A DNA stretch of 21,006 bases from a virus. How positions within the stretch are numbered: the first letter of the stretch is position 1; the number at the start of each line of letters is the position of its first letter. Positions 16 through 19,951 of this stretch are shown here, piece after piece. The stretch covers positions 1 to 21,006 of IMG/VR virus record IMGVR_UViG_3300009425_002189; one strand, 5' to 3'. A program made the translations under genes and the position numbers. The notes under the pieces are model-generated. The model was not told the DNA's origin. It saw only the letters and a program-made list of their open reading frames with translations, and ran no database searches.

Positions 16-456
16 ATGAAGAACATACTTAAAAATACAAATAAAGGATTCACTTTGATTGAGTTGATAATGACTACAATCATATTGGGTATCTTAGCTG
101 CAGTTGCAATACCAAGATATCAACAAACACTTGAAAATGCTGAAGCTGCTACAGAAAAAGCATTTGTAAATATGGTGTGGGCTGGATTAGAAGAAGAATC
201 ACATAACAGATTGCTGGCAACAGGTCTTGCATCCTGGCCTTACAATCCACTATCAGTAATTGGTAGAAGTCGTAACATAATTATAACAATGTACGATGGT
301 GTTCCTGATGAAGATGATGAGTGGCAATTTAGTGTGGATGCACTTGATGAACCATCATTATTTCACTATAGGCGTAATGATGAAATATATTATTTCACAT
401 ATGATTCAACCACATTTGAATTATCAGAAGTGGCTGTTTTACACAATGTTGAATAG
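16..456 (+). CDS. Type IV pilin-like (pseudopilin) protein
   Basis: This 146-residue protein starts with a class III signal sequence: a short basic leader of 11 residues ending in Gly11, then FTLIE, with Phe12 as the methylatable residue and Glu16 at the conserved +5 position. A hydrophobic helix follows to about residue 34 and ends in AVAIPRY, which is classic for type IV pilins and type II secretion pseudopilins. The rest (35-146) would be the globular head and resembles nothing I recognise. An AAGGA site at 4-8 supports the ATG at 16. Such proteins are cleaved by a host prepilin peptidase and sit in the inner membrane or a pilus fibre. No peptidase, ATPase or secretin is encoded nearby, so it would depend on host machinery. 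It is followed without a gap by two more envelope-type genes. The N-terminal signature is clear; the role in a phage is unknown. Confidence 0.85.
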   Translation: MKNILKNTNKGFTLIELIMTTIILGILAAVAIPRYQQTLENAEAATEKAFVNMVWAGLEEESHNRLLATGLASWPYNPLSVIGRSRNIIITMYDGVPDEDDEWQFSVDALDEPSLFHYRRNDEIYYFTYDSTTFELSEVAVLHNVE

Positions 457-882
457 ATGATTATCGAAGAAAAACTGGAATACGGACTCATCACGGCCAT
501 TGTGGTCGTGTTGGGTTTTGTATTTTTCAAAGAAGATGATACTCCATTTGTACCTAAAGGACTAACCCACGAAGAGTTTCTAATTTATCCAGTAGATGCA
601 TGGCAAACCACCGATAAGCAAGGTGGGGAGTGTGTAAAGATAAAGTATCTTGTGGGTAGGGATAACACTAAACTATATATGTTTGATAGAAACAATAAAG
701 TAGTACATTCACAACCATTAACATTAAGTCCACATAAAGATGGTAGAGAACGGATTGAAACCTATGTGTGGAGATTATACAGAACTGAATGGACAGATAG
801 AATTACACCAGGTCGGTATCAAGTAATAGTGGGGACATCATTTGATAAGAGAGGACTTGGGGTAGAAATAGAAATCATATGA
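457..882 (+). CDS. Membrane-anchored protein of unknown function
   Basis: This 141-residue protein is not recognised. Residues 9-24 form one hydrophobic segment suited to a membrane anchor or uncleaved signal. It is followed by a charged linker and a domain rich in short beta-type stretches, ending in a PGRYQVIVG-like strand pattern. The ATG directly abuts the stop codon of the pilin-like gene (TAG then ATG) and no good ribosome site is visible, so it is probably translated by coupling to the upstream gene. Its end overlaps the next start by four bases (ATGA). The likely arrangement is a short cytoplasmic tail and a periplasmic domain. Membership of the pilin-like unit is the main clue to function; a minor pilin-associated or envelope partner is conceivable but only inferred. 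Confidence 0.75.
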   Translation: MIIEEKLEYGLITAIVVVLGFVFFKEDDTPFVPKGLTHEEFLIYPVDAWQTTDKQGGECVKIKYLVGRDNTKLYMFDRNNKVVHSQPLTLSPHKDGRERIETYVWRLYRTEWTDRITPGRYQVIVGTSFDKRGLGVEIEII

Positions 883-1241
883 AACTGATATTAATTTTAC
901 TTTGTCTGAACTTCATGTTAAGTTATAGTCAAGATGAAGAGTTAGATTTAGATGTCATGTGGGAAAATGTTATTTGGGAAGAGATAGTAGAGATGGGTGA
1001 AGATAAGATATATGAAGTAGATAACATAACGCACGTGGCTGGTGTTCGTGGTGCAGAAGCAGAGGATGAAGCATTAGCATTATTATATTATAGACGAAGT
1101 ATGAACGGATTATCTAAATTAGATTTACAAAAAGCATTAGGTAAGTTGATTATGAAACGGCAGAAGATGTCTGATGATAGTGATACAAAAAAGATAGATG
1201 GTTATATTTATCAATTAAAAATAAAATTGAATAAAACTTAG
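879..1241 (+). CDS. Small secreted protein of unknown function
   Basis: The 120-residue product begins with a typical Sec signal peptide (about residues 1-17, hydrophobic LILILLCL core, cleavage probably after Ser17 and just before Gln18). The mature part is acidic at first, rich in Glu and Asp over about residues 19-45, and more basic and probably helical toward the end (LQKALGKLIMKRQKM). No known domain is apparent and no Cys remains after the signal. It overlaps the upstream gene by four bases (ATGA) and is the last gene before a strong terminator, so the three genes form one transcription unit. An exported partner of the pilin-like protein is a reasonable guess but no more. Confidence 0.75.
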   Translation: MKLILILLCLNFMLSYSQDEELDLDVMWENVIWEEIVEMGEDKIYEVDNITHVAGVRGAEAEDEALALLYYRRSMNGLSKLDLQKALGKLIMKRQKMSDDSDTKKIDGYIYQLKIKLNKT

Positions 1242-2540: not shown

Positions 2541-2613
2541 AAAAAAAAGGTTCTCACCGATTTTTAGTTTCCACTTATGATAGACTTAAAAACAAAATGA
2601 ACCTTTTTTTTTT
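2541..2613 (+). terminator. Terminator-like hairpin after the structured RNA
   Basis: AAAAAAAAGGTTC (2541-2553) pairs with GAACC plus a T run (2599-2611), giving a 13-bp stem and a U tract to 2613. The 45-base loop holds a smaller inner stem (TTTTTA near 2561 against TTAAAAA near 2587). It would separate the RNA unit from gp32. Confidence 0.65.
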
Positions 2614-2655
2614 ATAAAAAACTTAAAATATATTACATTTTAGCAAATTGAATTG

Positions 2656-2674
2656 ATATATATTATTGTATCAA
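2656..2674 (+). repeat. Upstream element, copy 2 (before gp32)
   Basis: ATATATATTATTGTATCAA matches the element at 2085-2103 in 18 of 19 positions. It lies 54 bases before the gp32 start, with TTGACAA at 2687-2693 between them. Its placement suggests that it is part of the gp32 promoter. Confidence 0.55.
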
Positions 2675-2728
2675 GGTTACACTTGATTGACAAATGAAAA
2701 ATAAACATAAACAAATGGAGAATATGAA

Positions 2729-5943: not shown

Positions 5944-7305
5944 ATGAGCGAAAATTTAATACAATATGGAACATCGTTCCAGTCAAAAATAATTACAAGT
6001 TTATTACTTGATAGTAAATTTACAAAACAAATTATAGAAATATTAGAAGTAAGTTATTTTGATACGGATTCTAATAAATATCTGATAAAATCTATCAAAG
6101 AATATTTTGTTAAATATAAAACACCACCAACAATGGAAGCAGTTAAGGTTATAATGGAAGAGGTAGATAATCCTACATTAAAAACCACAATTGTTGATTC
6201 ATTACGAAATGCTTGGAATCATAGAGAAGCAACAGATTTACCATTTGTTCAAGAAAAAACATTAGAGTTTTGTAAGAACCAAGTTGTTAAGGGTGCGATT
6301 ATGCAATCAGTTGAATTATTAGAATCTCATCGATATGATGAAATCAAAGGTATAATTGACAAAGCAATGACTGCTGGTATGGAACGAGATATCGGACATG
6401 AATATATTACTGGGTTTGAAGAGAGAATGAGTCAACAAGCAAGAATAGTTATGCCAACCGCATGGGATAGTGTTAATGATTTGATGGATGGTGGTTTAGG
6501 TGGTGGAGAGCTTGGAGTGATTGTTGCTCCTGCTGGTATTGGTAAATCTTGGACACTACAAGCAATAGGTGCTCATGCAGTTAAACAAGGTAAGACAGTA
6601 ATCCATTATACATTAGAGTTAAATGCTCAGTATGTTGGGTTACGATATGATACAATTGTTAGTGGACAACCAACGGGTAACTTACAATATTATAAAGAAG
6701 AAGTGCAGAAAGCAATAGATAAATTAAAAGGTAACTTAATCATCAAGTATTGGCCAACGAGAACTGCAAGTGTAAATTCAATCGTAGCACATTTACAACA
6801 ATGTGAACTACAAGGTATTAAACCTGATATGGTTATTGTGGATTACGCAGATATTATGAAATCAACATCTAACTTCACAGAAAAAAGACACCAAATCGGA
6901 CACGTTTATGAAGAACTAAGAGGTATGGCAGGAGAATTTGAGATTCCAGTATGGACTGCATCACAAGCAAATCGTTCTGCGTTAGAAGAAGATGTTATTG
7001 ATGCGAGTAAAGTTAGTGAAGATTATTCAAAGGTTATGACTTCAGATTTTGTAATGAGTATGAGTAGAAAAGTAGAAGATAAGATAGCAAATACAGGTAG
7101 ATTCCACGTTATTAAAAATAGATTCGGGCCTGATGGAATTACATTTCCAGCAACTATCAACACAAACACAGGGTTCATTCAGATATATGAAACCAGTTCA
7201 CAAGGTGGAAAAGCGGCCCAAGGTAAAATGAATAATGCAGATGAGTATCTACGTAAAACCTTGGCACAAAAGAAAAAAGATTTTGATGGTGAAGGGTTTG
7301 AATAA
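5944..7305 (+). CDS. 41: Replicative DNA helicase, gp41/DnaB-like
   Basis: The 453-residue protein has a helical N-terminal domain (about 1-150) and a RecA-like DnaB C-terminal ATPase domain: Walker A APAGIGKS (195-202), the TLEL catalytic glutamate near 225, Walker B MVIVDYAD (296-303), and TASQANRSALEE, characteristic of gp41/DnaB motifs. T4 gp41 has 475 residues. It forms a hexamer that unwinds the fork 5'-3' on the lagging strand and works with a primase. No primase gene is seen in the window. The ATG follows a weak AGG 12 bases after the preceding stop. The C-terminal tail is charged and probably flexible. Confidence 0.92.
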   Translation: MSENLIQYGTSFQSKIITSLLLDSKFTKQIIEILEVSYFDTDSNKYLIKSIKEYFVKYKTPPTMEAVKVIMEEVDNPTLKTTIVDSLRNAWNHREATDLPFVQEKTLEFCKNQVVKGAIMQSVELLESHRYDEIKGIIDKAMTAGMERDIGHEYITGFEERMSQQARIVMPTAWDSVNDLMDGGLGGGELGVIVAPAGIGKSWTLQAIGAHAVKQGKTVIHYTLELNAQYVGLRYDTIVSGQPTGNLQYYKEEVQKAIDKLKGNLIIKYWPTRTASVNSIVAHLQQCELQGIKPDMVIVDYADIMKSTSNFTEKRHQIGHVYEELRGMAGEFEIPVWTASQANRSALEEDVIDASKVSEDYSKVMTSDFVMSMSRKVEDKIANTGRFHVIKNRFGPDGITFPATINTNTGFIQIYETSSQGGKAAQGKMNNADEYLRKTLAQKKKDFDGEGFE

Positions 7306-7380
7306 AACTTCAAAGATAATCTTTTTAAAACTATGAATAAAATGTATATATTGCTAATATAAGTTAATATATATCATACA

Positions 7381-7395
7381 TATAATAGGTATAAT
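7381..7395 (+). promoter_or_regulatory. Possible AT-rich promoter before the ribonucleotide reductase
   Basis: Two exact TATAAT hexamers (7381-7386 and 7390-7395) sit about 30-40 bases before the reductase start in the longest non-coding gap of this operon. No convincing -35 element is spaced correctly, and the area is very AT-rich, so support is weak. Confidence 0.3.
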
Positions 7396-7422
7396 TAAGT
7401 TAAAAAAATGGAGAGTTTTAGA

Positions 7423-9444
7423 ATGGGTAAGTATAAGTTTAAATTATCAGAAAATTTTATTAATAAGTATAAAAGAAAGAAAGCTCCTTTTGGTTTCAAT
7501 GGTTTAGGAGAATTGGTTTATATGAGAACATATTCTCGTATTAAAGAAGATGGAAAAAATGAAAGATGGTGGGAGACGGTTCAACGGGTTGTAGAGGGAA
7601 CTTATACAATGCAAATGAATTGGATTGAAGGCCATCAATTAGGTTGGAATCCGTGGCAAGCACAAAAGTCCGCACAAGATATGTATGAGCGAATATTTAC
7701 AATGAAATTTCTACCACCAGGTCGTGGTTTATGGGCAATGGGAACAGCAATCACAGAAGAAAAGGGATTATATGCAGCCCTAAACAATTGTGCATTTGTA
7801 TCAACAAAAACAATCAAAGAAGATTATGCTAAACCTTTCTGTTTCCTTATGGATGCAAGTATGTTAGGGGTGGGCGTAGGATTCGATACAAAGGGTGCTG
7901 GTGAGATAGTAGTTAAGGGCGTTGATACAGATAGAGCACCAACAACATATGAAATACCAGATACTCGTGAGGGTTGGGTTGAATCATTACAACACTTATT
8001 AGAAAGTTATTTTCACGGAACTGCACCAATAGAGTTTGATTATAGTTTAATTAGATTAGTTGGTGAACCAATTAAAGGTTTTGGTGGAGTAAGTTCGGGT
8101 CCCGAACCACTACAAGAAGTACATGAAAGTGTTAGCAAAATGTTAGATAAGAATGTTGGAACACCAATCACTATTACAACAATCGTAGATATTATGAATA
8201 TGATTGGTAAATGTGTAGTAGCAGGTAATGTTAGGCGAACAGCAGAAATCGTATTCGGTGAACCAGATAACGAAGAATATTTAGATTTAAAAAATTATAA
8301 AGTTAACCCACATAGAGAACAATATGGTTGGACTTCTAATAATTCAATATTTGCAGAACTTGGTATGGATTATACAGAAGCTGCAAAAAGAATTAATGAT
8401 AATGGTGAACCAGGTTTTGCTTGGTTAGAAAATATGAGAAAATATTCTCGTATGAAAAATGGTGGAGATGATAAAGACCATAGAGTAATGGGTGGTAATC
8501 CTTGTTTAGAACAATCATTAGAAAGTTATGAGTTGTGTTGTTTAGTAGAAACATTCCCAAACAACCACGATTCATTAGAGGATTATCAGAGAACATTAAA
8601 GTATGCTTATTTGTATGCAAAATCAGTAACATTAGGTAAGACACATTGGTCAGATACTAACAGAGTTATGTTGAGAAATAGACGAATAGGTTGTTCAGTA
8701 AGTGGCGTTGCACAATTTGTTACAAACCGAGGATTGCATGAACTAAAAGATTGGTTAGAACAGGGATATGATACAATACAAGAATGGGATAAGATGTATA
8801 GTGATTGGTTCGCAATACCAAAATCAATTAAAACCACAAGTGTTAAACCAAGTGGGACAGTATCTTTGTTAGCAGGAGCAACACCTGGATTACATTATCC
8901 AGAATCAAGATTCTATCTTAGACGAGTAAGATTATCAAAACAATCAGAATTAATAGAACCACTACAGAAAGCGGGATATAAAGTAGAACCTGCATTTGGT
9001 TCAGAAGATACAACTATGGTTGTAGAAGTTCCAGTTGATGTTGGTGAGGGAATAAGAACAGTCGGTGAGTTATCTATATGGGAACAATTTAGTTTGGCTG
9101 CTTTCTTACAAAGACATTGGGCAGACAATCAAGTAAGTTGCACCGTCACATTTGACCCAGAAACCGAAGGTGAAATGATACCACAAGTCTTAAATTATTA
9201 TCAATATCAGTTAAAGGGAATATCTCTTTTACCGAGACATGAATTGGGTGCATACAAACAAATGCCTTATGAAGCTATTGATGAAAAAGAATATAACAAA
9301 CAAGTTAAGAAACTTGGAAAATTATCATTTGGGGTAATAAAAGCAGAAGAAGCAAATGTTGAAAAATTTTGTGATGGAGACTTTTGTGATATTGAAGTAA
9401 TACCCACTACTGGTGATAATGATGACCAAGATTACGTTAATTAA
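7423..9444 (+). CDS. nrdJ: Adenosylcobalamin-dependent ribonucleotide reductase (class II, monomeric NrdJ/RTPR type)
   Basis: Reduces ribonucleotides to deoxyribonucleotides with a radical made from coenzyme B12. From the ATG at 7423, which has GGAG 9 bases upstream (an ATG at 7408 would include that site in the coding region), it has 673 residues. Visible motifs are NNCAF with Cys123 and NPCLEQ (359-364) with Asn359, thiyl Cys361 and Glu363. ELCCLVETF (371-379) supplies the second active-site Cys (Cys372 or 373), SVKPSGTVSLLAGATPG matches the phosphate-binding segment, and a C-terminal CDGDFC pair (650, 655) reloads the enzyme. This matches the single-chain Lactobacillus leichmannii type (739 residues) and needs no NrdB or activase. 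It follows gp41 after a 117-base gap and precedes the outer-membrane receptor gene. Confidence 0.9.
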   Translation: MGKYKFKLSENFINKYKRKKAPFGFNGLGELVYMRTYSRIKEDGKNERWWETVQRVVEGTYTMQMNWIEGHQLGWNPWQAQKSAQDMYERIFTMKFLPPGRGLWAMGTAITEEKGLYAALNNCAFVSTKTIKEDYAKPFCFLMDASMLGVGVGFDTKGAGEIVVKGVDTDRAPTTYEIPDTREGWVESLQHLLESYFHGTAPIEFDYSLIRLVGEPIKGFGGVSSGPEPLQEVHESVSKMLDKNVGTPITITTIVDIMNMIGKCVVAGNVRRTAEIVFGEPDNEEYLDLKNYKVNPHREQYGWTSNNSIFAELGMDYTEAAKRINDNGEPGFAWLENMRKYSRMKNGGDDKDHRVMGGNPCLEQSLESYELCCLVETFPNNHDSLEDYQRTLKYAYLYAKSVTLGKTHWSDTNRVMLRNRRIGCSVSGVAQFVTNRGLHELKDWLEQGYDTIQEWDKMYSDWFAIPKSIKTTSVKPSGTVSLLAGATPGLHYPESRFYLRRVRLSKQSELIEPLQKAGYKVEPAFGSEDTTMVVEVPVDVGEGIRTVGELSIWEQFSLAAFLQRHWADNQVSCTVTFDPETEGEMIPQVLNYYQYQLKGISLLPRHELGAYKQMPYEAIDEKEYNKQVKKLGKLSFGVIKAEEANVEKFCDGDFCDIEVIPTTGDNDDQDYVN

Positions 9445-9453
9445 TAAAAACAA

Positions 9454-9512
9454 TATGTGTATGATTTCACATACGCAGGCAGTTGACACACCTGGTAAAA
9501 AATGTGTCATAA
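9454..9512 (+). promoter_or_regulatory. Promoter-like and structured leader of the receptor gene
   Basis: TTGACA (9483-9488) is followed after 18 bases by TCATAA (9507-9512), a weak promoter match. The same bases form TGACACA (9484-9490) and TGTGTCA (9503-9509), a perfect 7-bp inverted repeat. CAGG (9476-9479) can pair with CCTG (9491-9494), which interleaves with that repeat as an H-type pseudoknot. A hairpin TATGTG/CACATA (9454-9459/9468-9473) precedes them. It may be an operator at a promoter or an RNA control element before the GAGGAG ribosome site; the sequence alone does not decide. Confidence 0.45.
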
Positions 9513-9537
9513 ACAAAACAAACAGAGGAGACGATAA

Positions 9538-12276
9538 ATGAAGATTAATCGTAAACTAATAATAGTATCACTAATGATGATGACAGGATTGTTCGCACAA
9601 TCTATTGTTGGAGTTGTCAATAGTGGTGAAGAACCATTGATTGGAGCTAATGTAGCTGTCGAAGGAACTGATAAAGGTGGTGTAACAGATAATTCTGGTT
9701 CATACACTATCGATGTTGGAGCCGAAGGCACATTCACATTAACTGCTTCATTCATTGGATACTCATCTACAACACTTGATGTTGTGGTGGGTGATATAGT
9801 TGGAACACTCAACTTCAATTTAGAAGAAGATGTTTTAATTATGTCAGATGTTGAGGTATTGGCTTCAAGAGCTGGCAGAAATACACCTGTTGCTTACACG
9901 ACAGTTAGTAAAGAAGAAATGGAGATACGACTTGGAAGTCAAGATATCCCTATGGCTTTAAATACTACACCAAGTGTTTACGCAACTCAACAAGGTGGTG
10001 GTGCGGGTGATGCTCGTATCAATGTTCGTGGATTTAACCAACGGAATATAGCAGTAATGATAAATGGTGTTCCCCAGAATGATATGGAGAACGGATGGGT
10101 TTATTGGTCTAATTGGGATGGTGTTGGTGATGCCACATCTTCTATTCAGATGCAACGAGGACTATCAGCTGTTAATTTAGCTACACCTTCAATTGGTGGA
10201 ACAATGAACATCATTACAGACCCAGCATCCTTAGAAAAGGGTGGTAAGTTCAAACAAGAATCAGGTGGTGGTGGTTTTCTTAAAACTACTTTGAACTATA
10301 ATTCAGGTTTAATTGGTGATAAATTAGCATTAAGTGGTACGATTGTTCGTAAAACTGGTGATGGTATCATTGACGGAACTTGGACAGATGCTTGGGCTTA
10401 TTATTTTGGTGGTTCTTATGCAGTATCTGATAAACAACGATTTGAGTTGTATGCAATCGGTGCTCCACAAAGACACGGACAGAACCTATACAAACAGAAT
10501 ATCGCTACTTACTCACAAGAGTTAGCTGGTGAAATTGATGGATTCGATACTGATGCATTTGCAGAAGGTAATAAATTCGAAACCGAAGCTGGTAGGTTGT
10601 TCAATCAAAATGTAGCACCAATCGATGCATCATATACAGGTGAACAATACTGGTATATGTATGGAGCGAGAACTACTAAACGATACAATTCCGACTTTCT
10701 TAATGAGAGGGAGAACTTTTTCCATAAACCATTAGTGAATTTAAATCACTTTTTACAAATAAATGACAAGATGAAATTATCATCAGTTGCTTATTGGAGT
10801 GGTGGTTCTGGTGGTGGAACAGGTACGTATGGTAGTGTAATGAGAACACCTGCTGTAGTAGATAATGCTTGGTATTCAAGTTCACCATGGGCTTGGGATT
10901 GGAATGGCGAGATTGAACAGAATCGTACAAATGTAGATGCCGATTATTCGGAATCAGAACATCGTTCTACGGGTATTCTTAGAAACTCAATCAATAGACA
11001 AGATACATATGGATTAATTTCTAAACTAAACTTTAAAGTTAGTGATGATTTAGAGATTCAAACTGGTATCGATTGGAGAACTGCTAGTATAGAACACGCA
11101 CGTGAAGTTCGTGATTTACTTGGTGGAGATTACTACGTTGATTTTGCAGATAAAAATGTACCAGATGGTAAAGTAGTTAAGTTAGGTGATATAATCGCGT
11201 ATCATAACGAAACAACTGTCGACTGGTTAGGTGGATTTTTACAAGGTAACTACACGAGAGATAATCTAAATGTATATGGAATGGGTGGAATATCATCTAT
11301 TGGATATACATATAAAGACCATTTCTCTACAGACAATAGTGTAGTTGTGGCTGATAACATTACTACTTACCAAGTTAAGGGTGGAGTATATTACGATTTT
11401 GGTGAGGGAGTTACTACATATGCTAATACAGGGTATGTTGAAAAAGCCCCAATTCTTGATAATGTAATTGATTATTCTGGTACGGTCGCATCCAACCCAG
11501 ATAATGAGAAATTCTTATCAACAGAAGTTGGTGCTGGATATTCTAACGACAAGGTTGCCGTTAAAGTATCTATATATGCCACAGATTGGAAAGATAGAAA
11601 CCTTACTCGTAATGTTGACACAGGTCAAGGCGATTCGGGAGATACAGATGTAATCTTTCTAAAGGGTGTAAATCAGAAACATCAAGGTACAGAACTTGAA
11701 GTGAAAGTAAAACCACATGATTTGGTTGAACTTGACTTTGTTGCTTCTTTCGGTGGTTGGAAATTCGATGGTGATGCCAGTGGTACTTACCAAGAAACAG
11801 AATACAACGAAGAAGGCCAAGGAATTGGTTATACAACAACGGAATATGCTTACGCACTTGATGGGTTGTATGTTGGTGATATGCCACAGACATCTTATAC
11901 CTTTGCTTTGACTGTTAAACCAGTAAGTGGATTAAGAGTTACGGCATTGTACAAAATGTATGATAAGAACTATTCTGATTGGAGTCCTGCTTCGAGAGAA
12001 ATCGAGGATGGAACAGCTGATAGGACACAAGTTTGGGAAGCCGATGGTTACTCTAAACTTGATTTACACGCATCCTATAAACTTCCAAGTGTCGGTGGTT
12101 TAGATTTGACTTTAACTGGTCACATCTTCAACGCACTTGATGAAGTATATGTTCAAGATGCGGTTGATAACTCACAATACAATGGCTATGGTGATAAACT
12201 TCACTTAGCACAGAACGCCGAGGTATTCTTAGGAACACCACGATATGCTAACATTGGCTTGTCAGTAGCATTTTAA
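9538..12276 (+). CDS. TonB-dependent outer-membrane receptor with carboxypeptidase-regulatory-like domain
   Basis: This 912-residue protein starts with a signal peptide (1 to about 20, ending GLFAQ). A CarboxypepD_reg-like beta domain follows (about 22-97; PLIGANV, GGVTDNSGSYTIDV), then a TonB-box-like DVEVLAS (104-110), the plug (about 117-228; RINVRGFNQRNIAVMINGVP and PSIGGTMNII) and a beta-barrel to the end. The C-terminus, ANIGLSVAF with terminal Phe, is a proper outer-membrane insertion signal. Such receptors import siderophores, cobalamin or glycans using TonB energy; the ligand cannot be told here. The frame is intact and full length. GAGGAG (9525-9530) gives a good start. It is a single-gene unit with its own leader and terminator inside a phage replication cluster, as expected for an acquired accessory gene. 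Domain style suggests a Bacteroidota/Marinimicrobia-like donor. Confidence 0.92.
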   Translation: MKINRKLIIVSLMMMTGLFAQSIVGVVNSGEEPLIGANVAVEGTDKGGVTDNSGSYTIDVGAEGTFTLTASFIGYSSTTLDVVVGDIVGTLNFNLEEDVLIMSDVEVLASRAGRNTPVAYTTVSKEEMEIRLGSQDIPMALNTTPSVYATQQGGGAGDARINVRGFNQRNIAVMINGVPQNDMENGWVYWSNWDGVGDATSSIQMQRGLSAVNLATPSIGGTMNIITDPASLEKGGKFKQESGGGGFLKTTLNYNSGLIGDKLALSGTIVRKTGDGIIDGTWTDAWAYYFGGSYAVSDKQRFELYAIGAPQRHGQNLYKQNIATYSQELAGEIDGFDTDAFAEGNKFETEAGRLFNQNVAPIDASYTGEQYWYMYGARTTKRYNSDFLNERENFFHKPLVNLNHFLQINDKMKLSSVAYWSGGSGGGTGTYGSVMRTPAVVDNAWYSSSPWAWDWNGEIEQNRTNVDADYSESEHRSTGILRNSINRQDTYGLISKLNFKVSDDLEIQTGIDWRTASIEHAREVRDLLGGDYYVDFADKNVPDGKVVKLGDIIAYHNETTVDWLGGFLQGNYTRDNLNVYGMGGISSIGYTYKDHFSTDNSVVVADNITTYQVKGGVYYDFGEGVTTYANTGYVEKAPILDNVIDYSGTVASNPDNEKFLSTEVGAGYSNDKVAVKVSIYATDWKDRNLTRNVDTGQGDSGDTDVIFLKGVNQKHQGTELEVKVKPHDLVELDFVASFGGWKFDGDASGTYQETEYNEEGQGIGYTTTEYAYALDGLYVGDMPQTSYTFALTVKPVSGLRVTALYKMYDKNYSDWSPASREIEDGTADRTQVWEADGYSKLDLHASYKLPSVGGLDLTLTGHIFNALDEVYVQDAVDNSQYNGYGDKLHLAQNAEVFLGTPRYANIGLSVAF

Positions 12277-12282
12277 AAATGG

Positions 12283-12318
12283 TAAAATTGGGGGATTGGA
12301 AAATATCCCCCATTTTTT
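12283..12318 (+). terminator. Intrinsic terminator after the receptor gene
   Basis: TGGGGGAT (12289-12296) pairs perfectly with ATCCCCCA (12305-12312) over an 8-base loop, with an A-rich stretch before and six T after (12313-12318). It isolates the receptor gene from the polymerase gene. Confidence 0.9.
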
Positions 12319-12340
12319 CAAAAAAAAAGAAAGAAAGTAC

Positions 12341-12369
12341 TTGACTTGTATAGGGTTTTATGGTTATAT
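12341..12369 (+). promoter_or_regulatory. Sigma-70-like promoter for the DNA polymerase gene
   Basis: TTGACT (12341-12346) and TTATAT (12364-12369) are separated by exactly 17 bases. They lie between the receptor terminator and the polymerase ATG at 12403, where a fresh promoter is needed. Fit is good but not perfect. Confidence 0.5.
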
Positions 12370-12402
12370 TCACATATGATAAATTCGGAAATTAGAACAT
12401 AA

Positions 12403-14907
12403 ATGTATCAAAATGTTTTTTATGAAAAGAGAAAAAATAGAGTGCATGTTTGGGATGATAAACGAGGTCATCTTGTTATACCTTATAAGAAATATGCATA
12501 TGTAAAACATTCAAGTGGTTTACATCATACACTTGATGGTAGTAAAGTTAAAAAGGTGTACACTTGGGATGAGGATGACCCAGGTTTATATGAGAGTGAT
12601 GTACCAATCACAACAAGATTTTTAGTTGACCAATATACAGATTCAGATAATGTCGCAGAGGGAAACCGAACATTTTATTTTGATATAGAGGTGGAAGTAG
12701 TTGATGGTTTCCCAGACCCCGAAAAAGCAGAAACTGCCATTACATCAATCGCGTTTTATGATGAACTACTGAAGAGTTATATATGTTATACTTTAGACAA
12801 AAAAGATACCATTCAGAATTATGAAACGGGTGATACTAAAGTAACATTATTTAAAACCGAACATGAGTTATTAACTCAATTTTATAGAAAATACGCAGAG
12901 ATATCACCAACAATATTAAGTGGTTGGAATATTGATTATTTTGATATACCTTATTTATACAACAGAACAGTCAGAGTTTTAGGTGCAGAAGTTGCAAATA
13001 TGTTATCCCCCATACGACATGCATACTATAACGAATACAAAAAGAAGTTTGTTATTGCAGGGGTTAGTGTTTTAGATTACCTTGCATTATATAAAAAGTT
13101 CTCACCAATCCAACAATCAAGTTATCGTTTAGATTATATTGGTGAAGTTGAAGTTGGTATGAAAAAGATTGAGTATGATGGAACACTTACTGATTTGTAT
13201 GAAAATAACTTACAAAAATTTATAGATTATAATATCCGAGATGTTCGTATTCTTGTAGAGTTAAATGATAAGTTGGATTTCATAGGAGTTGCGTGTGGTA
13301 TAGCACACTTAGGACATGTTCCATATGAAGATGTGTTTATGAGTTCACGATATCTTGAGGGTGCTATTTTAGTTTACTTAAAAAAGATGGGTATTGTTGC
13401 TCCAAACAAACCAAGAAATCCGAAGCGGAGAGGTGATGATGAAAAATTTGCAGGAGCATATGTACAAGACCCTATCCGAGGTAAACACGAATGGGTTTAT
13501 GATTTAGATATTACCAGTATGTATCCAAGTGTTATTCGTACACTCAACATATCACCTGAAACTAAGGTTGGACAAGTTATGGGTTGGGATGCAGATGAAT
13601 ATTTAAAGGTTGGACACAAGAAAACTTATTCTATGATTAATACTAAGGGTAAGGAACTTCAGAAGATAGATAACATAGCATTAAAAGAATATTTAGAAGA
13701 AACAGGTTTGAGTATTGCATCGAATGGTGTAATGTATCGTACAGATAAACAAGGGTTGATTCCTGCTCTACTTACAAAGTGGTTTAAAGAACGAGTAGAG
13801 ATGAGAAAACTTGTAAAGAAGTTCAATGAATCAGGTGATAAAAAGAAAGAGGATTATTTTGATAGGAGACAATATCTACAAAAGATTCTACTAAATTCAT
13901 TGTATGGTGTGTTAGGTTTACCAGTATTTAGGTTCTATGATTTAGACAATGCTGAAGCAACCACACTAACAGGTCAATCATTGATTAAGTTCAGTAAGAA
14001 GATTACTAACCACTTTTATAATAAAGAGTTAGGTACAGATAAGGATTATGTTATCTATATTGATACAGATTCCATTTTCGCATCCGCAGTTCCATTAATA
14101 GAGAAGAGATTTCCAAATCAAAAATTAACTGAAACAATGATGACACAAAGAATTATGGAAGTGTGTGGTGAAGTACAAGATTATTTGAATGAAAGTTATA
14201 ATTATTTTGGTAAGAAATTCCTTAATGTTGATAAACACGAGTTTGATATCAAACAAGAGGTAATCGCAAAGACAGGTTTATTTGTAACTAAGAAACGATA
14301 TGGGTTACGAATTATTAACGATGCTGGTCGGAAAGTAAATAAAACACAAGTAAAGGGATTAGATACAGTCAGAAGTAATTTTGCTCCCGCTATGAAAGAT
14401 TTACTAAAACACGTATTGGATGATATATTAGCAAATGTTCCCAAAGAACAGATTGATGAAAGAATCAGTAAGTTTAAGAGGAATCTACATATGCTACATT
14501 ATAGTGTATTGGCAAATCCAATTGGTGTAAAGGGGATTGGTAAATATATTTCTAAAGATGAAGAGTCATCATTCAGTAAATATAAAAAGGGTGCACCAGT
14601 CCATGTTAAAGCAGCAATAAATTATAATTCTATATTACACCATTGGTTTGAAGGTAGAAAGTATGAGAAGATTACTAATGGTAATAAGATTAGGTGGGTT
14701 TACCTAAAGAATAATGAATATGGGTTTGATGTAATTGGTTATAAAGGATATGAGGACCCGCCTCAAATATTAGATTTTATTAAAATGAACATTGACCATA
14801 CTAAGATGTTTGAACAAGCAATGAGTAAAAAGATAGGAATGTTCTATGAAAGTTTGGGATGGGAAGCGGTCGTAGATAAACAGCAAAGTATAGAAAGATT
14901 TTTTTGA
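12403..14907 (+). CDS. 43: Family B DNA polymerase, gp43-like
   Basis: The 834 residues (T4 gp43 has 898) hold a 3'-5' exonuclease with Exo I FDIEVE (Asp94, Glu96), Exo II GWNIDYFDIP (Asp178) and Exo III YNIRDVRIL (Asp280). The polymerase domain has motif A DITSMYPS (Asp369), motif B KILLNSLYG (494-502) and motif C YIDTDS (Asp554, Asp556), then TKKRYGLRI. Both active sites look intact. It is the replicative, proofreading polymerase. The last eight residues, QQSIERFF, match the PIP-box pattern Q-x-x-h-x-x-F-F for docking on the sliding clamp, encoded next. The start has only a weak CGGAA about 12 bases upstream. It has its own likely promoter after the receptor terminator. Confidence 0.94.
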   Translation: MYQNVFYEKRKNRVHVWDDKRGHLVIPYKKYAYVKHSSGLHHTLDGSKVKKVYTWDEDDPGLYESDVPITTRFLVDQYTDSDNVAEGNRTFYFDIEVEVVDGFPDPEKAETAITSIAFYDELLKSYICYTLDKKDTIQNYETGDTKVTLFKTEHELLTQFYRKYAEISPTILSGWNIDYFDIPYLYNRTVRVLGAEVANMLSPIRHAYYNEYKKKFVIAGVSVLDYLALYKKFSPIQQSSYRLDYIGEVEVGMKKIEYDGTLTDLYENNLQKFIDYNIRDVRILVELNDKLDFIGVACGIAHLGHVPYEDVFMSSRYLEGAILVYLKKMGIVAPNKPRNPKRRGDDEKFAGAYVQDPIRGKHEWVYDLDITSMYPSVIRTLNISPETKVGQVMGWDADEYLKVGHKKTYSMINTKGKELQKIDNIALKEYLEETGLSIASNGVMYRTDKQGLIPALLTKWFKERVEMRKLVKKFNESGDKKKEDYFDRRQYLQKILLNSLYGVLGLPVFRFYDLDNAEATTLTGQSLIKFSKKITNHFYNKELGTDKDYVIYIDTDSIFASAVPLIEKRFPNQKLTETMMTQRIMEVCGEVQDYLNESYNYFGKKFLNVDKHEFDIKQEVIAKTGLFVTKKRYGLRIINDAGRKVNKTQVKGLDTVRSNFAPAMKDLLKHVLDDILANVPKEQIDERISKFKRNLHMLHYSVLANPIGVKGIGKYISKDEESSFSKYKKGAPVHVKAAINYNSILHHWFEGRKYEKITNGNKIRWVYLKNNEYGFDVIGYKGYEDPPQILDFIKMNIDHTKMFEQAMSKKIGMFYESLGWEAVVDKQQSIERFF

Positions 14908-14920
14908 TTTTGAGATTTCT

Positions 14921-14938
14921 TGTATATATGTATATACA
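14921..14938. promoter_or_regulatory. Dyad upstream of the sliding clamp gene
   Basis: TGTATATA-TG-TATATACA is a perfect 8-bp inverted repeat with a 2-base centre, 44 bases before the clamp start, in the 75-base gap after gp43. It may be an operator or promoter part, but alternating T/A sequence makes such dyads easy to form by chance. Confidence 0.3.
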
Positions 14939-14982
14939 TAGGAAAGCATAAGTAATAACTATTAACAAAGGACAATAAGGTT

Positions 14983-15714
14983 ATGAATAAAACAAAACTA
15001 ATTCGTTTTATCGACAAGTATTCGCTTGGTGGTGAAATTAAATCAGTAAAATGGTCATCCAATGGAAAACAATTGGCGACAAGGTTCATTAGTGGTGATA
15101 AATCATTAGTGGGGTCGGTAGTATTGGATAACTTCGATGATGTAGAAACATCAGATATTGGAGTTTATAACACTCCGCAATTAGTATCACTACTATCCAT
15201 CTTAGAAGAAGATGTAGATTTTAGTTTACAAAAAATGGGTGATAAGTTTGTGAGTGTTAATATGAAAGATTCTCAACATGGTACGCACTCGAAGTATATG
15301 TTGAGTGATTTATCAGTTATACCAACACCACCAGAGTTGAAGAATTTACCTTCAACATTTGGGTTGGAATTGAAGATTGATTCATATTTCATTAACACCT
15401 TTATTAGTGGAAAATCTGCATTACCAGATACCGATACATTTACTATCATCGCAAAAAATGATACTGCAAATGTAATAATTGGATTCAGTAATGTTGCTAC
15501 TAATCGAGTAACCATACCAGTTGAGTGTGAGGTGTTTAGTGATACTGAACCAATTTCATTTAACGCAAATATGTTTGCAAATATTTTGACTGCAAATAAA
15601 GAATGTGAGAAAGCTATATTGAAAGTTAGTTCAGATGGATTAGCTACAATTAGTTTTAATATCGATGATTATAAATCAGAATATTTTTTGGTTGCAACTC
15701 AACAAGTGACATAA
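14983..15714 (+). CDS. 45: DNA polymerase sliding clamp, gp45-like
   Basis: At 243 residues this is close to T4 gp45 (228). It follows the same pattern of two repeated clamp domains: SLGGEIKSVKWSSNGKQLATRF and the YNTPQLVSLLSIL helix in the first half; FNANMFANILTANKECEKAILKVSSDGLATISF in the second, the last part resembling the conserved clamp ending. Such clamps trimerise into a ring around DNA and tether polymerase and other proteins. AAAGGA (14967-14972) lies 10 bases before the ATG. The neighbours gp43 upstream and gp44 downstream agree with the assignment, though three unrelated genes separate it from gp44. Sequence identity to T4 is evidently low, so the call rests on pattern and context. 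Confidence 0.82.
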   Translation: MNKTKLIRFIDKYSLGGEIKSVKWSSNGKQLATRFISGDKSLVGSVVLDNFDDVETSDIGVYNTPQLVSLLSILEEDVDFSLQKMGDKFVSVNMKDSQHGTHSKYMLSDLSVIPTPPELKNLPSTFGLELKIDSYFINTFISGKSALPDTDTFTIIAKNDTANVIIGFSNVATNRVTIPVECEVFSDTEPISFNANMFANILTANKECEKAILKVSSDGLATISFNIDDYKSEYFLVATQQVT

Positions 15715-16228: not shown

Positions 16229-17451
16229 TGTATTTAGAATATTTTGACAAATTTAAAGGTATGACTCCTTATCTTGAAATAGATGAGAGAGAATGGGAGT
16301 ATATCAAAGAAACATTCGAAAAGGATGATGTCAAAGAAAGTCTTGCTAAAGTTGCAATGACTTATGAAATTCCATACGCCAATATATCAGAAAAAGATGC
16401 CTATAAAGCTTTACAAAAGTTAAAGGGTATGAGACATAATGATTTATTGGTAGATGGTGAGTGGTTTGCTCGTGAGGGAACTGCATACAAATATGATTTA
16501 AAGTTTGAAGGTAAACAACAATACTTTAGAAGAGTTAATATAGGTAATGCTGCAAGTAATTTTTTTCAACAAGAAAATCGATGGAGTGTGGATGGAACAA
16601 TATCCCCAGGCCCGAAGAGAACTTGGGAAACTGAAAAATATATGACATCATTGATGGGTGCAGCATATACTCTAAAATTATCTAAAATAACTGCGGGTAA
16701 TCTTAGAATTATGTTAAGTTTACGGAAGTATATTTGTTCACAATTTAAACCTAATGTGTCAAAAGTACTATACGATAAGTTAGGTAGTGAAAACATATTA
16801 GATTTCTCTGCAGGTTGGGGGGATAGATTAGCAGGATTCTATGGTAGTGAAAGTGGTAAGTATTATCTTGGGATAGACCCACGAAAAGAAAACCATCCTA
16901 TTTACAAGGAACAAAAAGAGTTCTATGAAAAACATAGAAATATGTTTTTTGAAGTTGATAAGGATGCACAATTTATAGTATCCCCAGCAGAAGATGTGGA
17001 TTTCAAAGAGTATGAAAATATATTTGATACGGTCTTTACATCACCACCATATTTTTCAGTTGAACGATATAGTTATGATGATACTCAAAGTTGGGTACGA
17101 TATAAAACCATTGAAGAATGGAATGAGAAATTTTTACAGGCAACTATTAAAAAATTATGGTGTTCTATAAAAAGTGGTGGATATTTATTAGTGAATATAT
17201 CAGATGTATATGCAAGTTCTAAGGGTGGTAAAGATTGGTTGGAGATTTGTAATCCTATGAATGATTTCCTAAGTACATTTGGTGATTCAGAATATCAAGG
17301 TTGTATTGGTATGGAAATGGCAAAACGTCCTAATAGTGGTGGAGCAGGAACTGCCGCAGAAGATAGGTTTAAGGATGAAACATTAGAACTTGCCGAGAAA
17401 ACCAAAGATAAAACTTTTTGTGAACCAATTTGGATATGGAAAAAACTTTAA
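16228..17451 (+). CDS. SAM-dependent DNA methyltransferase-like protein (SPPY type)
   Basis: The 407-residue protein has a novel-looking N-terminal part (about 1-170) and a Rossmann methyltransferase domain: SAM-binding motif I ILDFSAGWGDRLAGFYG (190-206), the acidic motif II GIDPRKE (215-221) and catalytic motif IV TSPPYFSVERY (271-281). SPPY is typical of amino-methyltransferases making N4-methylcytosine or N6-methyladenine. No C5-methyltransferase Pro-Cys signature is present. The C-terminal part (MEMAKRPNSGGAGTAAEDRF...) ends EPIWIWKK, a strand common at the end of such domains. Its start overlaps the nuclease-like gene by one base and its end overlaps the oxygenase gene. It could modify phage DNA against host restriction; the target site is unknown. 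Confidence 0.78.
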   Translation: MYLEYFDKFKGMTPYLEIDEREWEYIKETFEKDDVKESLAKVAMTYEIPYANISEKDAYKALQKLKGMRHNDLLVDGEWFAREGTAYKYDLKFEGKQQYFRRVNIGNAASNFFQQENRWSVDGTISPGPKRTWETEKYMTSLMGAAYTLKLSKITAGNLRIMLSLRKYICSQFKPNVSKVLYDKLGSENILDFSAGWGDRLAGFYGSESGKYYLGIDPRKENHPIYKEQKEFYEKHRNMFFEVDKDAQFIVSPAEDVDFKEYENIFDTVFTSPPYFSVERYSYDDTQSWVRYKTIEEWNEKFLQATIKKLWCSIKSGGYLLVNISDVYASSKGGKDWLEICNPMNDFLSTFGDSEYQGCIGMEMAKRPNSGGAGTAAEDRFKDETLELAEKTKDKTFCEPIWIWKKL

Positions 17452-18086
17452 TAAGTAATGATAATCCTTTATTTACTAAGGAAGAGTGCTTAGAGATAAG
17501 AAGTTGGGCAAGGTTAAAAGTTCAATGGATGGATAACTTCGACCCCTATACTGATGAATATGTTCCGATGTGCTCTAAAATGTTATCAAGTATTATACAT
17601 TGGGATGAAGATGAGAAGTATAAGTGGGTGCATGATAAGATATTTGAGTGGGGTAAATCATTAGATATTGGAATTAAAAGATTAGGTACGCCGAAGTTGA
17701 GAACAAATTGGTTTATGATTAATAATTACCCAAAGGGAACTTTCTTCAAACCGCATTCTGATAAGACAGGAAACTATGGTGAGTTAGATGATAAGGATAA
17801 GAATGGTGGTAGTGCGGTATATGTTGAGAATGAAAAAAATATACGAATTGCAACTTTTGTTACACAATTATCAGAGCCCAACGAGTATGAAGGTGGAGAG
17901 GTAGAACATGATACAAATTCAAAGGGCCAGTTTAAAAATAGTATGAATAAAAAAGTAGTAAGAAAGAGTCAAGAAATCGGACACACATCAATACATAGTT
18001 CAGATTTAATACATTGGGTTAATCCCATAACATCTGGTAACAGATGGAGTTTACAAATATTTTTAGAAAAGGATAGTTTCGTATGA
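17436..18086 (+). CDS. 2-oxoglutarate/Fe(II)-dependent oxygenase (prolyl 4-hydroxylase-like)
   Basis: The ATG at 17436, inside the end of the methyltransferase gene, is preferred over a TTG at 17430, giving 216 residues. The double-stranded beta-helix motifs are clear: FKPHSD with His107 and Asp109, the strand RIATFVTQLSEP with YEGGEVE, then SDLIHWVNPITSGNRWSLQIFL with distal His193 and the 2-oxoglutarate-binding Arg203. This completes an HxD...H iron site plus the Arg. Such enzymes hydroxylate proteins, nucleic-acid bases or small molecules; P4H-like copies are common in marine T4-like phages, usually with unknown substrate. Overlap with the methyltransferase (16 bases) and gp44 (4 bases) shows cotranslation within the replication operon. 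A role in DNA or replisome-protein modification is inference. Confidence 0.87.
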   Translation: MEKTLISNDNPLFTKEECLEIRSWARLKVQWMDNFDPYTDEYVPMCSKMLSSIIHWDEDEKYKWVHDKIFEWGKSLDIGIKRLGTPKLRTNWFMINNYPKGTFFKPHSDKTGNYGELDDKDKNGGSAVYVENEKNIRIATFVTQLSEPNEYEGGEVEHDTNSKGQFKNSMNKKVVRKSQEIGHTSIHSSDLIHWVNPITSGNRWSLQIFLEKDSFV

Positions 18087-19006: not shown

Positions 19007-19269
19007 ATATGAAAGCACAGAAACCAATAAAAAACCCACAGCAGAAAGTAGATTTAGCTAAAGCAGATACACTAAATTGTCAGGCGTGTGGTAATTATTT
19101 GTTTATAACATCAACGATTATAAAAAAGATATCTGCAATAATGTCACCAAATGGTCAAGAAGGATTAGTTCCAATTGAAGTATTTAGTTGTGGTAATTGT
19201 GGACAAGTACCAACCGAGATGTTAAAAGGAACAGGTCTTGAACCCGCAGAACCCGCACTGGACTCATAA
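19003..19269 (+). CDS. Small four-cysteine zinc-ribbon protein
   Basis: The 88-residue product has CQAC (26-29) and CGNC (63-66), two Cys-x-x-Cys knuckles 33 residues apart with predicted strands between (YLFITST, VPIEVFSC). That is the layout of a zinc ribbon, usually a DNA-, RNA- or protein-binding module. The first 20 residues are basic and probably flexible. It overlaps gp44 by four bases and occupies the position where T4-like phages often encode gp62, but it is shorter than gp62 (187 residues in T4) and shows no evident similarity. A replisome or transcription accessory is possible. Its last 32 bases overlap the next gene, whose ribosome site lies inside this one. Confidence 0.75.
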   Translation: MNMKAQKPIKNPQQKVDLAKADTLNCQACGNYLFITSTIIKKISAIMSPNGQEGLVPIEVFSCGNCGQVPTEMLKGTGLEPAEPALDS

Positions 19270-19951
19270 AGAGTTTGATATATTTGATGATTTAAAATCA
19301 AGAAAGAATCAAACACATAAAACTGTCGGCGGAGATAAAACTGGTAGAGTAGTTGGTGGATATACATTTAATGAACTTGGATTTAGGGGAGATGATTTAG
19401 AAACTTATTTTTCATCAAAATCTAAGTTACTTACTTTTGGATGCAGTCATACATTGGGGGTAGGTGTGGGAAATGAGGAAACATGGCCACATTTATTAGC
19501 AAACAAAATTCAACACTCACATATTAATTGTGGTATTCAAGGAATATCTAATGATACAATTAGTAGAGCAGTTCTATCATATACAGAAATTTTAAAACCA
19601 GATTTAATTGTTGTTTTATATACTTATCCACATAGGAGAGAGTACACCACATTGGATGGTAGGAAATGCTCCTTTAAACCTGATGGTAAATGGGATTATT
19701 GGGAAACTGATGATGGGTTGTTAGCTCACGATTCACTTGTAAATTTACAGAACGATGAATATGATAATGACAATCTATACAGAAATCAATTACTGATTAA
19801 GAATTATTTGGAAAATAAAGGAATTAGATTACTAACAAATGTTATAGATGAATATCTTGGGTGTTGGGAAGATGAGGCAGTTGATGGTAACCACGCTGGA
19901 GTTTTATCTAACGAATTATTTACCAAAAATTTATATGAGAGATATTTATAA
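19238..19951 (+). CDS. SGNH/GDSL hydrolase-like protein
   Basis: The 237-residue frame has no internal Met codon; the TTG at 19238 is preferred because AAAAGGA (19223-19229) sits 8 bases before it inside the zinc-ribbon gene. Block I is LLTFGCSHTLGVGVG with putative nucleophile Ser70. GISNDTISR (102-110) supplies the Gly and Asn of the oxyanion hole, and DGNH with Asp216 and His219 completes the triad at the usual C-terminal position. The first Asp of the classic GDS is Cys69, a variation seen in phage relatives. Such enzymes are esterases or deacetylases on glycans or lipids; in phages they may act on surface sugars or tail glycans. It stands between the replication genes and the next large gene. 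Active-site reading is good; substrate unknown. Confidence 0.7.
   Translation: MNPQNPHWTHKEFDIFDDLKSRKNQTHKTVGGDKTGRVVGGYTFNELGFRGDDLETYFSSKSKLLTFGCSHTLGVGVGNEETWPHLLANKIQHSHINCGIQGISNDTISRAVLSYTEILKPDLIVVLYTYPHRREYTTLDGRKCSFKPDGKWDYWETDDGLLAHDSLVNLQNDEYDNDNLYRNQLLIKNYLENKGIRLLTNVIDEYLGCWEDEAVDGNHAGVLSNELFTKNLYERYL

Follow-up and report, generated by a model that had tools for sequence, protein, structure and literature searches.

The window is the whole stretch of DNA analysed here, a viral record of 21,006 bases that holds a T4-like replication cluster. Pfam and sequence matches identify gp32, UvsX, a 5'-3' exonuclease, a DnaB-like helicase, a class II ribonucleotide reductase (RNR) and a TonB-dependent receptor in this cluster; a B-family polymerase, a clamp-like protein and an RFC-like loader are further members. 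The phage is classed as T4-like on gp32, UvsX, the DnaB-like helicase, the B-family polymerase, the clamp, the RFC-like loader and the gp23 capsid protein; of 13 related contigs, two have gp23 above cut-off and most of the others are fragments. The nearest isolate to the window polymerase is Microcystis phage Mel-JY01, at 44.6%; with no cultured member close to it, the phage represents a deep branch. The features of the receptor locus are as follows.

7408-9444, plus strand: class II (B12-dependent type) RNR, upstream neighbour of the receptor
9475-9508, plus strand: H-type pseudoknot leader RNA of 34 nt, conserved and covarying
9475-9479 with 9491-9495, plus strand: pseudoknot stem 1, four of five pairs formed in the window
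9480-9484, plus strand: pseudoknot loop CAGTT
9485-9490 (GACACA) with 9503-9508 (TGTGTC), plus strand: pseudoknot stem 2
9496-9502, plus strand: A-rich pseudoknot loop TAAAAAA
9526-9530, plus strand: Shine-Dalgarno sequence AGGAG, behind an A-rich spacer
9538-12276, plus strand: TonB-dependent receptor (TBDT), 912 aa, ATG start, TAA stop
Receptor residues 1-20: signal peptide MKINRKLIIVSLMMMTGLFAQ, read from the sequence
Receptor residues 25-107: CarbopepD_reg_2 domain (Pfam, E 9e-16, above cut-off)
Receptor residues 106-111 (E106-R111): TonB-box-like EVLASR, by position and conservation
Receptor residues 114-222: Plug (Pfam, E 1e-13, above cut-off)
Receptor residues about 235-912: beta barrel (AlphaFold2 model)
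12289-12318, plus strand: intrinsic terminator 3' of the receptor gene, TGGGGGAT-loop-ATCCCCCA, then TTTTTT
12341-12370, plus strand: sigma-70-like promoter of the polymerase gene, TTGACT-18-TATATT, which recurs in relatives
12403-14907, plus strand: T4-type B-family DNA polymerase, downstream neighbour of the receptor

Elsewhere in the window, a manA RNA (RF01745, 62 bits, over its cut-off) lies at 2324-2524, within a 1-kb non-coding stretch 5' of gene 32. A 2OG-Fe(II) oxygenase gene and an ORF that resembles an SGNH-type hydrolase by eye (17430-18086 and 19238-19951) flank the RFC-like loader gene.

The preliminary description of this DNA claimed a complete TBDT and proposed a structural search. 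The claim holds up: the protein has a signal peptide, a TonB box, a Pfam Plug and a C-terminal aromatic residue (Phe, read from the sequence), and the AlphaFold2 barrel matches the TBDT structures Fiu, YncD/PqqU, FhuA and FecA in the PDB with E down to about 1e-21. The model has a mean pLDDT of 72.8 and shows a large beta barrel with a poorly modelled plug; plug and barrel together indicate that the receptor is probably a TonB-dependent transporter. EVLASR is unchanged at the TonB-box position in 94 phage and host sequences. A SusC/RagA identity is rejected (TIGR04056, 57 bits versus a cut-off of 368), and no SusD-like neighbour is recognised in the phage by Pfam or in host loci by eye.

The window RNR contains the class II insertion domain (Pfam), and RNR and receptor are probably co-transcribed. 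The terminator is the only one detected on the plus strand within 7300-15000, and its hairpin is seen again 3' of most phage receptor copies. Since the polymerase gene has a promoter of its own which recurs in relatives, it is probably transcribed separately from the receptor gene.

Receptor relatives are encoded by 322 viral stretches in a scan of viral contigs. In the best 80 of these 322, RNR lies less than 400 nt upstream of the receptor in 76, polymerase lies downstream in 72, and the full order RNR-TBDT-polymerase is found in 69. A second set of loci was retrieved by polymerase, which avoids selection by receptor, and was required to have at least 1.5 kb of upstream sequence; the receptor is present at 52 of 53 such loci. 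The sole locus lacking it has a polymerase that is just 45% identical. The receptor is therefore a core gene of this phage clade at a fixed site and no one-off insertion, although the contigs behind these comparisons are mostly fragments. This overturns the earlier label of an acquired accessory gene; the accompanying statement that such an importer lies outside the classical T4 core is correct.

The same comparisons bear on whether the locus is an assembly chimera, or host DNA wrongly assigned to a virus. A contig from a different assembly (L002) differs from the window by a single mismatch across 12,168 compared bases. The RNR and polymerase flanks recur on both sides in the 69 contigs above, and the phage-specific leader is missing from the host loci searched. 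Both junctions, which had been singled out for testing, are thus found again in independent assemblies, and chimerism is refuted; an artefact of either kind is extremely improbable. Two contigs binned as Flavobacteriales (L082) and Euryarchaeota (L128) contain the phage cluster and are probably mis-binned phage. Variant arrangements are also seen: in L052-L054 the receptor is followed by tRNA genes and the polymerase is distant, of 27% identity, while L057 has receptor and leader with a tRNA gene after the receptor and no RNR nearby.

Almost all cellular relatives of the receptor belong to Neomarinimicrobiota (Marinimicrobia), and 122 of 245 genomes of this phylum match it at E <1e-100. In each of the six host genomes examined, the 12-19 TBDT-like matches include a single full-length orthologue (60-67% identity); this indicates that one particular importer was taken. 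In trees, the phage receptors group inside the Neomarinimicrobiota orthologues, as expected from the host origin proposed earlier. Constraining them to a phage-only clade gives a log-likelihood 36.6 better and is not rejected (AU p 0.73), and a single ancient capture is probably the simplest reading of these sequences. A near-identical host gene was searched for among cellular sequences and not found; the best cellular match is 67-70%. Together with the many phage carriers, this disposes of the case in which an identical host gene exists and phage relatives lack it.

One cellular contig, L083 (JAFMFP010000048.1), has two tandem TBDT genes, the first of which is 69-70% identical to the phage protein. 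It sometimes drops into the phage clade, on a long branch, and it does not have the phage leader; it represents either a sequence near the donor lineage or a phage-to-host transfer.

The Neomarinimicrobiota orthologues (e.g. L085, L087 and L229; 57-70% identity) resemble the phage copy in domain order, TonB box, plug and loops. They differ in that the gene is solitary in the bacteria and has no pseudoknot leader. In several host genomes the orthologue adjoins the same MCGRKT-type ORF, which by eye we take to be an SOS-response peptidase; the neighbours examined give no hint of a substrate. RNR was also considered as a clue to the host, but it has no match at E 1e-50 in 61 genomes of the phylum and was set aside for this purpose. 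These uncultured ocean phages probably infect Marinimicrobia, an assignment drawn from one gene, the receptor. The receptor is a host-derived gene that is carried and conserved in phage genomes, and in this sense it is an auxiliary metabolic gene.

The reading frame is intact in all full-length phage copies, and pairwise receptor dN/dS is about 0.08-0.31; the copies are under purifying selection. Pooled dN/dS is 0.056 for the plug, 0.17 for the barrel, 0.20 for the extracellular loops and 0.42 for the signal peptide and N-terminal domain; these regional values are approximate, as loop limits are taken from a moderate-confidence model. Phage and host consensus differ at 3.5% of plug sites. The extracellular loops are conserved about as much as the barrel, and no site, loops included, is fixed differently in phage and host at the level of at least 90% in both groups. 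Low dN/dS, a near-identical plug and the lack of fixed differences form the pattern expected from selection for the same transport function; on these sequence comparisons, a working importer appears likelier than an altered receptor. Among the functions put forward in the preliminary description, nutrient uptake fits best, given also the invariant TonB box. Masking of the receptor or a change of surface antigens would be expected to alter the loops; this is not seen, and receptor camouflage is less likely.

Exchange between these phages is apparently more frequent for receptor alleles than for the replication core. Receptor dS is sharply different from that of its neighbours in several close phage pairs, being lower in some and higher in others. 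The receptor tree has 4-5 of 20 splits in common with replication genes and 7 of 20 with RNR, while replication genes other than RNR have 6-11 in common among themselves. This controlled comparison shows a milder excess of exchange than a quick receptor-versus-polymerase comparison (1 of 31 splits shared), which was set aside because it relied on a fast search and because one of its members, L052, has a polymerase that is no close orthologue. No recent replacement of the receptor from a host is seen. Many contigs (L173, L175-L186 and similar) end inside or right beside the receptor gene; exchange of this gene among co-occurring phages would make assembly graphs branch there and so produce such ends.

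The receptor gene was said to have its own leader and terminator, and the leader proves to be a conserved pseudoknot. Aligned phage upstream sequences give the consensus ACAGG-CAGNN-GACACA-CCUGU-NNAAAAA-UGUGUC. The element is present in every phage copy with enough upstream sequence and ends 19-39 nt 5' of the ATG. The spacer that follows is 49% A over 68 leaders and, judging from composition alone, is apparently unstructured. In 48 distinct leader sequences, 96% of cells pair. There are 41 double-change cells versus 9.1 in shuffles (0 of 500 shuffles, which ignore relatedness, reach this number), and the covariation score is 0.258 versus at most 0.080 when partners are slid. Four inner pairs vary; they change from one pair type to another, and pairing is lost in no cell.

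A covariance model built on stem 2 plus sequence has exactly one strong match in each large phage contig (13 of 13), always at the receptor gene. It has no strong match in the host loci searched; in 199 host genomes it gives 10 weak matches (best E 4e-4), which is about chance level. An independent pattern scan finds 77 further instances: 70 are directly 5' of a receptor gene and the other seven lie immediately after RNR where the contig runs out, and are followed by a start codon. In L057, where the receptor lies away from RNR, the pseudoknot is retained; this shows that the element belongs to the receptor gene. A search of Rfam 15 with window 9400-9600 gives no plausible match at E up to 10, and a known riboswitch or Rfam family is rejected. 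The leader is thus a previously undescribed element, specific to the receptor gene. Directly 5' of the pseudoknot, many (not all) phage copies have a TTTCACATAC element (window 9465-9474); similar CACATACC strings are also seen upstream of certain host orthologues (L085, L091 and L100), and the element is possibly a remnant of host regulation.

The two stems could instead be interleaved inverted repeats in a DNA operator that is bound by a transcription factor. Each stem does double as a DNA inverted repeat, and in the window a TTGACA overlaps stem 2; however, TTGACA is not kept in relatives. Loop 1 varies from 4 to 5 nt and loop 3 from 4 to 9 nt, which would upset helical phasing on DNA. Stem 2 includes G-U intermediates, and conservation extends to unpaired bases, namely CAG and the A-rich loop. 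A DNA operator is accordingly quite unlikely, and an RNA pseudoknot is preferred.

The leader resembles the T4 gene 32 operator, in which an H-type pseudoknot is followed by an unstructured stretch, rich in A or in A+U, that contains the ribosome-binding site (PMC3014915, PMC535899). Both occur in T4-type phage and share the layout of pseudoknot followed by A-rich ribosome-binding region; the T4 element is 5' of gene 32, whereas the present one is 5' of the receptor gene. The receptor pseudoknot is absent 5' of gene 32 in this clade, and so does not occupy the position of an autogenous gene 32 element. Gene 32 has a different leader here: a recurrent hairpin-like GATAC...GTATC, ATCAAGGTTACACTTGAT, precedes its A-rich ribosome-binding region (e.g. 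window 2590-2728); it differs from the receptor pseudoknot and may serve as a gp32 operator.

A second TonB-related protein is found in part of the clade. A TonB_C domain is above cut-off in 5 of 13 large phage contigs; the protein is about 100-122 aa and has a signal peptide with no evident inner-membrane anchor. From these features it looks like a TonB competitor more than a helper, and it might compete with host TonB. In two contigs its gene is beside a small envelope cluster 5' of gene 32. This cluster (window 16-1241; L006 496-2183; L023 771-2535; L063 521-2519) encodes prepilin-like proteins with an N_methyl motif, a protein with an N-terminal membrane segment and a secreted protein; in L006 and L063 it also has the secreted TonB_C domain. 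No TonB_C is found in the window's envelope cluster; where L006 and L063 have the TonB_C gene, the window has an HNH/NUMOD4 homing-type endonuclease gene (1316-1741). Pseudopilin and TonB parts are uncommon in T4-like phage.

The best reading, with a probability of about 0.6, is that the receptor is a clade-core importer, probably controlled by the pseudoknot, which keeps up TonB-dependent uptake during infection. The gene would descend, probably through one capture by a T4-like lineage, from a conserved single-copy TonB-dependent importer of a Neomarinimicrobiota host, and would have become fixed between RNR and polymerase of the phage. In the infected cell, where the host has presumably ceased to synthesise outer-membrane proteins, the phage would express fresh importer and insert it into the host outer membrane. 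Driven via the conserved TonB box, this importer would keep up or raise uptake of the host orthologue's substrate. Output would be tuned post-transcriptionally by the leader, in the manner of the T4 gene 32 operator: a phage protein or a small ligand is the probable partner of the pseudoknot, which would control translation through access to the A-rich ribosome-binding region.

One explanation for the RNR neighbour is corrinoid supply, in which the importer would bring in vitamin B12 for the adjacent B12-dependent RNR and the two genes would form a nucleotide-supply unit. The close spacing in 76 of the best 80 contigs, the class II insertion domain and the 7 of 20 splits shared with RNR (4-5 with any other replication gene tested) are consistent with this. 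However, at 912 aa and with a regulatory-like domain at its N-terminus, the receptor resembles BtuB neither in size nor in domain content; a search near six host orthologues finds no cobalamin riboswitch, and the L057 gene keeps its leader with no RNR upstream. Corrinoid supply is therefore very unlikely.

TBDTs are classic phage receptors, and the gene could serve superinfection control. The outer membrane would be flooded with phage receptor and some members would also secrete a TonB_C protein as a competitor for TonB boxes; entry through host TBDTs would be closed to later phages or bacteriocins. FhuA, which is bound by T5 pb5 and blocked by Llp, is among the PDB fold matches, the secreted TonB_C protein is known from the five contigs above, and receptor alleles are apparently exchanged between phages. 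On the other hand, a masking receptor should differ in its loops, which here follow the host consensus; the TonB_C gene is not in every contig and does not adjoin the receptor. Superinfection control is possible but unlikely. A broader takeover has a similarly low standing: the phage would supply its own importer, use a new RNA class to sense a phage protein or nutrient, and reroute or block the host's other receptors with the secreted TonB domain.

Under the preferred reading of sustained uptake, one conserved host importer has been singled out as worth copying. In a phage lineage that is recovered widely and is assigned to an uncultured phylum, a core gene encodes an outer-membrane importer and has a private regulatory RNA. 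Its fixation suggests that the virus controls what the infected host takes in, and this question becomes testable. No account of this receptor in Marinimicrobia phages was found in the open-licence literature.

Viral auxiliary metabolic genes mostly encode cytoplasmic enzymes or inner-membrane and periplasmic parts. Phage PA-2, a lambdoid lysogen, carries the porin Lc, which replaces the host porin. Lc and the present receptor are both phage-encoded outer-membrane channels, but Lc is a porin and no TonB-dependent importer. In T5, Llp-mediated superinfection exclusion at FhuA likewise involves a phage product that acts at an outer-membrane TBDT; Llp, a lipoprotein, acts by blocking the receptor of the host, whereas here the phage encodes the receptor itself. 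The marine megaphage Mar_Mega_1 encodes a SusC-like TBDT which was proposed as an uptake auxiliary metabolic gene (PMC9723777). That TBDT was reported as SusC in single megaphages; the present one is a non-SusC orthologue, a core gene of a T4-like clade, and has its own RNA leader. The T4 gene 32 pseudoknot was described in a 2010 review as possibly the sole viral pseudoknot in translational autoregulation (PMC3014915); the receptor leader adds another phage pseudoknot leader to it.
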